DNA from: Bacilli bacterium
GTDB taxonomy: Bacteria > Bacillota_I > Bacilli_A > RF39 > UBA660
NCBI GenBank assembly: GCA_017511805.1
Contig: JAFWJA010000015.1
Location: 387,098-451,097, forward strand
Reading direction: 5' to 3'
DNA: 64,000 nt
Both the position numbers and the translations under genes were made by a program. Shown in pieces: positions 33,867 to 38,513 of this stretch. The notes below the pieces were generated by a model. The model ran no database searches and was not told the DNA's origin. It worked only from the letters and a program-made list of their open reading frames with translations. How positions within the stretch are numbered: the stretch's first letter is position 1; every line of letters begins with the position of its first letter.

Positions 33867-33933
33867 TATCTCAACTCCACATTAAATTATACCATTTTAA
33901 ACGAAAAAAGACTATACTTAGTAGTCTTTTCCT

Positions 33934-34536
33934 TTATAATTTATAAACTAATGTATTAATTCTAGTATGTGATTCTTTTATAGGTGAATTAATTCCTTCA
34001 TCTTCATTAAAAATTTCATCATCTAATAGTTTACGAGCTTTATCTAAAACAGTTGCTATTTGTTTTTTACATTCTTCCATCATTTTTATATTTCTAGGTT
34101 TTGTTTTATCAAATATTTCTTCAACAAACATTTTTTCTGGAACTAATTCATATTTAGAACCTAATTTTTCATCAAGTTCATCAATTAAATTATCATCTCT
34201 TTCAAGAGTGCCCCAGTTAAATGAACTTAATTCTGAATAAACTAAATGTATATCTCCATTATTAAAGAAATATATTCTAGCGTATTCACAAGGTTCTCTA
34301 TCATCTGAACTTGTAACATGAATATCAAATACAACACCATTTTCTCTTACAGAAATTTCATCTATAAAATCTAAATCTCTATCACATAAAGTACAAGTTG
34401 GAGAAGTTAAATTCTCCACAATTGTATCTTTTTGATAAATAATACTATCTACATAAGTTTCATCAATTCGTTTAAAGAAACAATCTGTAATTCCTGGTGC
34501 TCCTTTTGCTCTATATCCATATTCTTTAATAGCCAT
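33934..34536 (-). CDS. Unknown protein downstream of the riboswitch-controlled lipoprotein
   Basis: 200 residues, acidic, no signal peptide or helix. It contains a CTLCDRDLDF segment with a CxxC pair and another isolated Cys nearby, and ends in a helical region (KMMEECKKQIATVLDKARKLL). The N-terminal half is beta-rich. It begins 15 bases after the lipoprotein stop (GGAGGGATAATATG leads in), so it should be in the Mn-type riboswitch transcript. No family is recognised. An RlmN terminator hairpin does not intervene; instead a hairpin AGACTAC...GTAGTCT follows its own stop. Confidence 0.65.
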   Translation of the reverse strand: MAIKEYGYRAKGAPGITDCFFKRIDETYVDSIIYQKDTIVENLTSPTCTLCDRDLDFIDEISVRENGVVFDIHVTSSDDREPCEYARIYFFNNGDIHLVYSELSSFNWGTLERDDNLIDELDEKLGSKYELVPEKMFVEEIFDKTKPRNIKMMEECKKQIATVLDKARKLLDDEIFNEDEGINSPIKESHTRINTLVYKL

Positions 34537-34551
34537 ATTATCCCTCCTTAA

Positions 34552-35301
34552 TTAGTGTTCCTCTTTATCAGATGGAACTAACTCTAATTTTTTGCTATCG
34601 CCATTTGTTTTTTCTAATTCAATTGGTTCTCCAAATTCAGTAAAATGAGTTTCCTCATTTTCATCTACTGACCCAATACATTTTACAGGAACTATATTCT
34701 TGTATAACAATACACCACCACCATAGCAATTACTATATGCTCCTCCAGTTCCAATTGAAGTTAATGCTATTCCAACAACTTCATATCCTTCGTGATATTC
34801 ATATTGATAATAATTATATCTAATATCTTCATTCAATTGTTCTTCCTTTATAGGAATAGAAATAATATGTTGGCCTACATTAAATTCCTTAATATTGTCA
34901 CTTGAAACACATTCCTGCTCAATATGCAAAGGTGTACCAAATTCTAAATATTTTTCATTATTATCAACAGATACGCATTCAACTTCTTCAACATTGGAAT
35001 ATAATATTCCACCACCAGCATAAAAATTTCCATATTGTCCAACCGCAGTTAATGCTATTCCAATTGGCTCATAACCAGGATGATAATCATATTGAACATT
35101 ACTATATCTAACATCATTTTCTATTGGAACAGATATAATATGTTGGCCTATACCAAAATGCGTAGTTGTCATTTCACTTACTATTTCTTGATTTGACTCA
35201 GTACTATTACTTTCAATTTCACAACCTGTTAAACTTGTGCTTGTTAATGCAAAAGTTCCTGCTAATAGCATTGCTTTTAACCTAATATATTTATCTTTCA
35301 T
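34552..35301 (-). CDS. Lipoprotein with duplicated unknown domain, under a Mn-type riboswitch
   Basis: 249 residues. Type II signal peptide with lipobox LTGC (Cys27). The mature part is a tandem duplication: residues 49-124 and 140-226 share GQHIIS(V/I)PI, then a Tyr-rich YDYHPGYEPIGIALT or YEYHEGYEVVGIALT, a glycine-rich AGGGILYSNV or YGGGVLLYKN, and a closing FG(T/E)P. A short acidic C-terminus follows (PSDKEEH). I do not recognise the domain. Conserved His, Tyr, Glu and Asp positions could bind metal. GGAGG lies upstream of the ATG. Transcription is governed by a consensus promoter and a yybP-ykoY-type aptamer, so the product is expected when Mn2+ is high. Confidence 0.8.
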   Translation of the reverse strand: MKDKYIRLKAMLLAGTFALTSTSLTGCEIESNSTESNQEIVSEMTTTHFGIGQHIISVPIENDVRYSNVQYDYHPGYEPIGIALTAVGQYGNFYAGGGILYSNVEEVECVSVDNNEKYLEFGTPLHIEQECVSSDNIKEFNVGQHIISIPIKEEQLNEDIRYNYYQYEYHEGYEVVGIALTSIGTGGAYSNCYGGGVLLYKNIVPVKCIGSVDENEETHFTEFGEPIELEKTNGDSKKLELVPSDKEEH

Positions 35302-35336
35302 TTTCCTTTTTCCTCCTTTATTTATGTGGAGATATA

Positions 35337-35457
35337 CAAAAAGACCTCCACATAATAAAAATTATGTGAAAGTCTTATTCTTTTAATATTTAATCCGAAT
35401 ATAAAATATTGTGATGACGAATTAAATCACTTCTAAGAAGTAGAACTACTCCCTTTC
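35337..35457 (-). promoter_or_regulatory. yybP-ykoY-type manganese riboswitch with terminator
   Basis: Minus strand from 35457: GAAAGGGAGTAG, then TTCGTCATC (aligns with the CGTCAA of L1/L3 in the Lactococcus yybP-ykoY aptamer), TTCGGATTAAAT (aligns with the CCGGCUUU part), and AATAAGACTTTC closing P1 (GAAAG/CTTTC) at 35368. Directly after comes a long hairpin AAGACTTTCACATAAT...ATTATGTGGAGGTCTTTTT (35337-35376). The terminator uses the P1 3' strand, so ligand binding (P1 formed) should prevent termination: an ON switch. Confidence 0.78.
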
Positions 35458-35467
35458 AACGATTTAA

Positions 35468-35496
35468 ATTATACCATAAAATGCCATTTTTGTCAA
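35468..35496 (-). promoter_or_regulatory. Consensus sigma-A promoter of the riboswitch transcript
   Basis: TTGACA (35491-35496), 17-base spacer ending TGG, TATAAT (35468-35473): full consensus with extended -10. Transcription starts near 35461, four bases before the aptamer. Confidence 0.88.
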
Positions 35497-36701: not shown

Positions 36702-36722
36702 CAATTAATTGTCATTTTTATT
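36695..36722. terminator. Bidirectional terminator
   Basis: AAAATGACAATT/AATTGTCATTTT, near-palindromic, between convergent tmcAL and the macrodomain gene; covers both stops. Confidence 0.8.
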
Positions 36723-37458
36723 TTTCAAAATATTTACTATAAATATTATAATCATCTAGTGTAAATACATTAAATAGTATTTTATCAAAAGAATCATCTA
36801 CAGTATATCTTTTAATTGTATCTATTGTTACTCTAGCAACATCTTCTTTTAAATCACTACTTACATTAATATTAGGTACACAAATAGTTTTAATATTATT
36901 ATTAATTGCTAGTTCAAATACATTAGTATAAAACTTTTCAACTAATTCTAAGTTTTCATCTGTTAATTCATCAAATTCTGGTTTTACTGCATGTATAATT
37001 TGATTACAAGGTAAATTATAGGCATCTGTTAAAATAACTTTACAAGTTTCTATTTCAGCCCCCTTAGTTATTTCCTTACATTTTAATCTTAAACTAACTC
37101 CTGCATAAGTATGAATCTTATTACTTACACAATTATGATTTGGTTTAAAACAACCTAATAACTTGTTATTAGAAGGATTAACTATCGCATCACATTTAAC
37201 ATTAGTTATATCTCCTTGATATAAAGAAAACTTATCTTCTATAGTATCTATATCAACAATTTCTTTTTGTTCTAATTCTAATCTTAATAATTCATTCTCT
37301 TTTTCTATAATCTCAGGTGGTAACCCCTTTGCCTCTCTTACATTCATTAATCCCCTTAAAAATTCTCTTTTATTAACATAATTTGTAGGTATATCAATTA
37401 CTGGATGAGAAGCTTCTTCTAAAAAGAATTTAATTAGTTCATTAACTAATTGTTCCAT
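36718..37458 (-). CDS. Zinc-type macrodomain protein (protein-ADP-ribose hydrolase family), altered loop
   Basis: 246 residues from the ATG at 37458 (GGTG six bases upstream). N-terminal helical extension (1-70), then a macrodomain of the zinc-containing class: LYQGDIT (79-85), CDAIVNPSNN, LLGCFKPNHNCVSNKIH with zinc ligands Cys103, His108, Cys110, then AYNLP. These enzymes remove ADP-ribose from protein. However, the phosphate-binding loop normally reading GVFGFP is replaced by NINVSSDLKED, and the HTVGP motif by HAVKP. So ADP-ribose binding or catalysis may be lost or changed. Not linked to a sirtuin operon. Confidence 0.82.
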   Translation of the reverse strand: MEQLVNELIKFFLEEASHPVIDIPTNYVNKREFLRGLMNVREAKGLPPEIIEKENELLRLELEQKEIVDIDTIEDKFSLYQGDITNVKCDAIVNPSNNKLLGCFKPNHNCVSNKIHTYAGVSLRLKCKEITKGAEIETCKVILTDAYNLPCNQIIHAVKPEFDELTDENLELVEKFYTNVFELAINNNIKTICVPNINVSSDLKEDVARVTIDTIKRYTVDDSFDKILFNVFTLDDYNIYSKYFEK

Positions 37459-37523
37459 TTCCATCACCTAATAATATTATATTATAAAGTTTAAAAAAAG
37501 AAAATATTCTTAGTTATTTTCTT

Positions 37524-38513
37524 TTATTTTAATTCATTACTAGAAACTGGTAATGTTTTTTGTTTTTTAAATGCATTCGCATAAACTTCTAATAATTCTT
37601 TATATTTTGGATCATCTAAATCTTTACCATAAGATTCCATCAATACAGGTGCTAATTCTAAAGCAACTTTTTTTAATTCTTTATATTTAGATAATAATTG
37701 TTTATATTCTTCATCTGCTTCCTTACCTTCATATCTTTTTAAAGACCATAACGCCTCGTTACTTTTATCTAGATATCCTAATATTCTTATTAAATTATTT
37801 TCATTAACAAAAGTACTTAATTCTTTATTGCTATCATATTTTTTAATTGAAAAATCAAATAGTTTTCCATCCATTATATAATCAAACAATTCAAAACAAG
37901 CTCTATATTCATCATATACTCTAGATGGGAATAGTCTTTCATCCTTATAAATATAGTCTTTAAGATCATAACCTGCTAGTAATAATTCTTCTCTAAATTC
38001 TTTTGATTCAAATATTTTAGAACAAATTGATTCTAAAAATCCATCTGACATTCTAAAGCCAAAGAAATAATTTGCTTCAAGTTTACCTTCTTCATTATAT
38101 CTACATTTTAAATAAACAGCATTAGTTCTTTTAGCAACTGGATAAAATCCATCCTCACCAATAGAACAAGGTTTATATTCAGTCATAACATGACCTAATT
38201 CATGAGTTAGTATGGTTATTAATTTAATATAATTTGAGGATATAATATATTCCACTTTATGAAAAATATTACATTTATCATCATAATCAGTAGTTGTCAT
38301 AGCAAAATAATTATTTTCTGTTCTAAAATCTTTATCATCTTCATCTTTTTTAACAAATTCTGTATTACATAAATTATATATACCTTCTAAAGGTAGTTTA
38401 CCTTCAGTCTCTCTCATATAACCTCTTGCGACTGCTTCTACAATAGGTTTTATATCATCAGGTATATTTGATTCTTTAATTATATTACTAACTTGTTTTA
38501 ATAATTCGTCCAT
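37524..38513 (-). CDS. HELGH zincin-like protein, unknown
   Basis: 329 residues, no signal peptide. A central LITILTHELGHVMTEY places HELGH at 104-108, followed by a Cys/Gly-rich and a Phe-rich region (EANYFFGFRMSDGFLESI), where a downstream Glu could be the third ligand. The rest is helical, Lys/Glu/Leu-rich. The layout (helical N-domain, HExxH, long helical C-domain) resembles the protein at 17058-17948, though overall identity is low. GGTGATTTA precedes the ATG. Substrate and process unknown. Confidence 0.68.
   Translation of the reverse strand: MDELLKQVSNIIKESNIPDDIKPIVEAVARGYMRETEGKLPLEGIYNLCNTEFVKKDEDDKDFRTENNYFAMTTTDYDDKCNIFHKVEYIISSNYIKLITILTHELGHVMTEYKPCSIGEDGFYPVAKRTNAVYLKCRYNEEGKLEANYFFGFRMSDGFLESICSKIFESKEFREELLLAGYDLKDYIYKDERLFPSRVYDEYRACFELFDYIMDGKLFDFSIKKYDSNKELSTFVNENNLIRILGYLDKSNEALWSLKRYEGKEADEEYKQLLSKYKELKKVALELAPVLMESYGKDLDDPKYKELLEVYANAFKKQKTLPVSSNELK

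Follow-up and report, generated by a model that had tools for sequence, protein, structure and literature searches.

Riboswitches of the yybP-ykoY class sense manganese and normally lie ahead of metal-export genes. In the window, a stretch of 64,000 nucleotides of a Bacilli genome that was analysed as a whole, an RNA resembling this class is placed ahead of a lipoprotein gene, and the genes downstream of it, unlike those of the usual Mn2+ exporter operon, encode no cation exporter, a target that is usual for the class but does not define it. Does this leader truly belong to the class, what would it sense, and why would it control a lipoprotein? We favour, with a probability of about 0.8, a single explanation in which a yybP-ykoY-class leader acts as an Mn2+-responsive ON switch ahead of a two-gene operon. 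The coordinates of the parts are collected in Table 1. Numbers prefixed G and L are our labels for genomes and for leaders or loci, respectively; G000 is the window genome.

Table 1. The leader and its operon, in window coordinates.
Feature	Coordinates	Strand	Basis
Promoter TTGACA-N17-TATAAT, extended -10 TG	35468..35496	-	12/12 consensus positions matched
Transcript start	~35461	-	inferred
yybP-ykoY-class aptamer	35366..35458	-	R1, 53 bits, E 1.1e-11
P1 switch helix, 5' strand GAAAG	35453..35457	-	sequence; partner CTTTC at 35368-35372
L1 GGAGTA (GGGAGTA motif)	35447..35452	-	invariant in class and family leader alignments
L3 TCGTCA (TCGTCATCAC, with CGG)	35415..35420	-	A35415 = L. lactis A41 by alignment
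P3 arm: ATTTAAT/ATTAAAT, L3, distal hairpin AATAT/ATATT, CGG	35388..35427	-	covarying helix
Intrinsic terminator, 16 pairs, -18.8 kcal/mol	35341..35376	-	T run follows at ~35338-35343
Alternative 'latch' hairpin, 12 pairs, -14.3 kcal/mol	35320..35357	-	folding with P1 enforced
Lipoprotein gene, 249 aa, lipobox LTGC, Cys27, two beta-rich domains	34552..35301	-	ORF, AlphaFold2
Domain copy 1 (GxHII...GY...YxN...FG)	34894..35163	-	sequence repeat
Domain copy 2, 48% identical to copy 1	34606..34890	-	AlphaFold2 model, mean pLDDT 85
Second operon gene, 200 aa, CTLC motif	33934..34536	-	ORF; starts 15 bases past the lipoprotein stop codon
Terminator-like hairpin AAAGACTA...TAGTCTTT, T run	33904..33929	-	by eye; A+T-rich, absent from scan list

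The leader, some 160 bases long, lies between the promoter and the lipoprotein gene on the minus strand and reads, in order, GAAAG-GGAGTA, the P2 hairpin, ATTTAAT-TCGTCATCAC-hairpin-CGG-ATTAAAT, AAGACTTTC, the terminator and its T run. The L1 bulge GGGAGUA (35452-35447) faces AAGAC (35376-35372) between P1 and the next helix, and the P3 arm carries the L3 motif UCRNCANNNC opposite YGG in a covarying helix. Of the P2 and P4 hairpins that belong to the four-way junction of the class, P2 is present as ACTTC/GAAGT; no clear hairpin can be drawn from the P4 segment, ATTAAAA, of the window copy, whereas sisters such as L047 do have one. The 'full set' of class elements named in the original prediction is therefore slightly overstated, the parts being present in the right order. 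The P1 helix GAAAG/CTTTC, the consensus promoter and the overlapping terminator it described were all confirmed, the terminator sharing CTTTC with P1. The promoter spacing is identical upstream of most sister leaders.

This architecture closely follows that of known yybP-ykoY leaders (RF00080; L. lactis yoaB, X. oryzae, B. subtilis, E. coli mntP/alx), with which it shares the promoter-proximal position, the L1 GGGAGUA opposite AAGAC, the P1/P1.1 switch helix overlapping the terminator and the P3 arm whose L3 holds the Mn-contacting A41. It differs in being A+T-rich and below RF00080 detection, in lacking an evident P4, in controlling a lipoprotein, and in an extra strand after the terminator that can form a latch hairpin; some of its sisters in the same bacterial family are without P2, having the linker CCTTAAATG in its place.

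A search of the window with RF00080 gave no match, even permissively at E up to 10; the curated threshold is 45 bits. The original prediction had named this outcome as grounds for rejection, and on paper it counts against the class. The argument is invalid, however, because RF00080 also misses the exporter-gene leaders of the same bacterial family, and the miss in the window thus reflects low sensitivity of the model rather than a limit of the class. We ran RF00080 on 296 genomes of the same bacterial class and collected matches below the gathering score with E < 0.001. Several of these class-level leaders precede exporter genes (MntP-like, CaCA, P-type ATPase, as read from the sequences), as expected for yybP-ykoY RNAs. 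We built a covariance model, R1, on 15 class-level leaders, all from outside the window's bacterial family; 14 of them had E < 0.001 with RF00080, and L004, the remaining one, precedes an MntP-like gene although its score was only 11.8 bits. R1 therefore provides an independent test of the window leader, which it scored, with filters off, at 53 bits (E 1.1e-11) across the 64-kb window, the runner-up reaching 16 bits. In whole-genome searches the E value was 2.6e-10 with R1 and 4.1e-12 with R2, in which members of the family were added to R1, and this leader was the only one in the window genome. Weak R1 matches below 25 bits (L036-L046) were left out. R1 also recovered the leaders that a pattern search had picked out in further genera of the family, together with the leaders of lipoprotein homologues in G006 and G002 that the pattern had missed. 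The pattern search itself served for candidates only, since its reversed-pattern control had matches in at least 6 genomes, against ten forward places. One candidate, L008, was rejected as a coincidence inside a coding sequence.

Across 386 genomes of the family, R2 found 49 leaders, spread over 36 genomes of 22 genera. In the family alignment (53 leaders, 49 of them distinct), standard pairs fill 96.1% of the pair cells, a figure flattered by the fitting of the alignment to the model. Both-side changes occur in 17 of the 19 pairs among the 49 distinct leaders, none of 500 shuffles was as good and slid structures were also far off; we judge compensatory changes on such a scale to exceed what model fitting alone would yield. 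Helix 1 (P1) covaries in the 49 family leaders, and helix 3 is paired in 97.5% of cells, with compensatory change in nine of its ten pairs. The two types of L3, TCGTCA...CGG and TCAACA...TGG, themselves differ by a compensatory change from G-C to A-U. An ordinary attenuator or terminator hairpin that happens to carry GGGAGTAG...TCGTCA would fit the silence of RF00080, but such a chance resemblance is refuted by the R1 score and by the strong covariation, and the leader recurs in 22 genera; we give it practically no weight. Judging from its sequence, the window leader almost certainly belongs to the yybP-ykoY class, as originally proposed; it has diverged but kept the core.

The window leader is not the lone oddity that it had seemed: many genes of the family other than exporters have the same RNA upstream. 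Its forms vary: P2 is replaced by a conserved linker of the CCTTAAATG type in L002, L003, L034, L035, L058, L068, L070, L081 and L087. In G596 (contig 3), tandem riboswitches L061 and L077 are found in the order leader, 138-aa gene, second leader, Band_7 gene. Identical aptamers occur on separate contigs of G616 (L050 and L073) with different unknown genes downstream, which suggests recent copying of the switch.

A second Rfam model also touches the same stretch. RF02617, SSRC10 (Streptococcus sRNA 10), matches positions 35336-35434 weakly (18.3 bits against a gathering score of 56), and its consensus carries CGUCAAUACGG...CCGG and GAGACCU, corresponding to the L3 and GAGAC signatures. It is curated as an sRNA, yet it matches exporter leaders of the family, L067 with 47 bits; the Mn-riboswitch leaders L067, L125, L054 and L078 are covered by it end to end. 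RF02617 may be a second Rfam entry for the same riboswitch class.

How would the leader act? The 5' arm of the terminator includes the 3' strand of P1, CTTTC, so that aptamer and expression platform are mutually exclusive. Given a real promoter and an overlapping terminator, a transcriptional switch of the ON type is the best reading, and we consider this architecture, including its direction, very likely. Without metal, the terminator would take the 3' strand of P1 and transcription would end. Mn2+ bridging L1 and L3 would stabilise P1 and block the terminator, and the freed 3' arm of the terminator could then pair with the third strand CTCCACATAA, beyond the T run, in a latch hairpin that excludes the terminator. 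Such a latch would hold the ON state after passage of the polymerase, which would continue into the operon to transcribe the genes for the two-domain lipoprotein and then the small cytoplasmic protein. The latch complementarity of the window leader exceeds that of shuffled sequences (p 0.005). Of 52 family leaders, 13 have a significant third strand, against none of the 15 reference leaders; it is thus a feature of some family leaders, not of all.

The identity of the ligand rests on the binding site and on the company that the RNA keeps. In L. lactis, Mn2+ is held by the phosphates of G9, U39, C40, U44 and C45 and by N7 of A41 (PMC9190785), within the L3 run UCA41AUUC (PMC6754395); the Mn-contacting adenosine is A41 in L. 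lactis and A48 in X. oryzae (PMC6754395, PMC9190785). The window has UCA-UCAC at this site, and the equivalents of C40, A41 and C45 are kept. The A41 equivalent is an A in nearly all family leaders, that of the window (35415) included, and is replaced only in L065 and L066 (U) and in L080 (G); C40 is changed to U in L059, L062 and L080. Seven sister leaders in the 386 genomes stand ahead of Ca2+/cation exporters: CaCA exchangers behind L067, L071, L072, L082 and L088, and P-type cation ATPases behind L054 and L078. The exporters of L067, L082 and L078 were checked by Pfam, and the remaining four were read as their homologues. These CaCA/YrbG and P-type ATPase operons, likewise of the window's bacterial family, have leaders of the same RNA class, and the window operon differs from them in having no transporter. 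With the letters of the Mn site kept and exporters behind sister leaders, Mn2+ is the best inference for the window copy and probably its ligand. Had the ligand shifted to a different divalent ion or to some other signal, the mixed gene set with its non-exporter genes would be accounted for; a few leaders do have changed Mn-contact letters (L065, L066, L080, L059, L062), and Sherlock and Breaker raised the possibility that yybP variants respond to a different divalent ion (PMC7266159). We hold such a shift improbable for the window leader, whose L1, A41 and C45 are all Mn-type letters and whose sisters sharing this core stand ahead of CaCA exchangers and P-type ATPases. In so mixed a regulon, part of the leader set may respond to a different divalent ion, and the copies with altered binding sites stand as direct candidates for the kind of ion-switched variant that PMC7266159 predicts. 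Some leaders with altered Mn-contact letters precede an HAH-motif lipoprotein family.

The two CaCA genes of the window genome have no yybP-ykoY leader. A T-box leader followed by a CaCA cation exchanger is found at L130 (G000:C6, about 182,870) and at L125 (1017-2211). In the window genome an isoleucyl-tRNA synthetase-like gene lies directly 3' of this T-box CaCA exchanger, and the ion exporter looks like part of an apparent ileS T-box operon.

With Mn2+ taken as the probable ligand, we turn to the genes that the family leaders control. The domain found in the window protein is present in the lipoproteins or membrane-anchored proteins behind L033, L047, L002, L003, L083, L075, L076 and L125; more distant GTHII-type lipoproteins lie behind L055 and L080, and the separate HAH-motif lipoproteins behind L060, L062, L066 and the sister copy L065. 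In addition, Band_7 proteins are found behind L032, L059 and L077, AdoMet decarboxylase-like proteins behind L052 and L069, nucleoside deoxyribosyltransferase-like proteins behind L034 and L035, and a peptide deformylase behind L056; further leaders precede unknowns. A gene under a metal riboswitch can be predicted to take part in the response to the metal, and the switch points in this way to an undescribed surface-protein family and to several housekeeping-type enzymes; we found no report tying either to manganese. What is new here is the recruitment of the switch class to diverse non-exporter genes in the window's bacterial family, with shortened forms and a latch hairpin. Manganese riboswitches are undercounted, both in extent and in the range of genes they control, since an entire branch of the class escapes RF00080. 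The host bacteria were seen in the analysis solely as metagenome assemblies. A broader reading, in which the aptamer is a general metal switch for lipoproteins, SPFH proteins, AdoMet decarboxylase-like proteins, peptide deformylase and others, comes in P2-less, altered-contact and latch forms and senses in part an ion other than Mn2+, appears unlikely to us.

Is the lipoprotein a regular target of the switch? A profile of its domain has matches in 30 of the 386 family genomes. The leader stands ahead of two-domain proteins in G000, G006, G216, G642 and G596, and also ahead of one single-domain protein of G596, a G002 protein and a protein of a rumen MAG (L125). Six pairs of leader and domain gene were seen where about 0.004 would be expected under independence in the 386 genomes, kinship making the p-values too small, and outside these six, G002 and the rumen MAG also pair the two. 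The leader is commoner on two-domain than on single-domain proteins (Fisher p 0.003, too small given the related genomes). The other single-domain and the three- and four-domain homologues are almost always without it, and there is none before the G526, G625 or partial G483 genes. The leader recurs on two-domain homologues in several genera, but is absent from the closest homologue found (58% identical; L126, the G526 protein). The overlap is far above independence, yet patchy, and the link is thus real but evolutionarily labile.

The repeated domain of the lipoprotein, of about 85 residues, has no significant sequence match in Pfam, NCBIfam, PHROG or PDB. AlphaFold2 predicts a confident beta structure, with a mean pLDDT of 77 for the whole protein and 85 for the single domain. 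In fold searches neither the whole protein nor a single domain found a convincing match, a result that does not make the fold new: the best Foldseek hits were to Fab chains (E 0.01, TM 0.12), and the VIA values were Z 2.7 (rmsd 5.2, 94 residues aligned) and, for the single domain, Z 3.2 (rmsd 6.2, 58 aligned). When 30 domains were compared, only H8, Y36, N65 and V69 were invariant. The two copies of an undescribed domain in the original prediction hold, but the His/Tyr/Glu-rich character is not conserved, as each domain has one invariant His and no conserved His/Glu/Tyr cluster. Many copies have lost the His of the YHEGY motif, among them the two domains of each riboswitch-linked protein, that of G006 and that of G002. 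The metal buffering suggested earlier is unsupported, given one invariant His per domain; a surface protein that itself buffers or chaperones Mn2+ would suit the Mn-type switch upstream and the His and Glu of the YHEGY motifs in some copies, but the four invariant positions and the loss of the YHEGY His make it very doubtful. Our best guess, a tentative one, is a structural or adhesive envelope module within a Mn-stress programme. Surface lipoproteins (L055, L060, L062, L066, L080) and Band_7 (SPFH) proteins (L032, L059, L077) behind the same RNA point in this direction, as do the tandem beta domains, one to four in homologues; against it, the fold searches yielded no known fold or partner. 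The lipoprotein would then serve the cell envelope under high Mn2+ rather than bind the metal.

The CxxC-containing protein that had been noted next is indeed encoded by the adjacent second gene, but it is no conserved partner: the gene is not conserved beside the lipoprotein in relatives, and in 291 genomes its only relatives are two distant paralogues in its own genome and one weak match elsewhere. The paralogues (33% identity) lie at G000:C6:543543-543995 and 530235-530582. Elsewhere in the window, a Macro-domain protein (36718-37467) is encoded beside a 329-aa protein with a HELGHV motif (37524-38513), which matches no Pfam family above cut-off and is a possible metallopeptidase.
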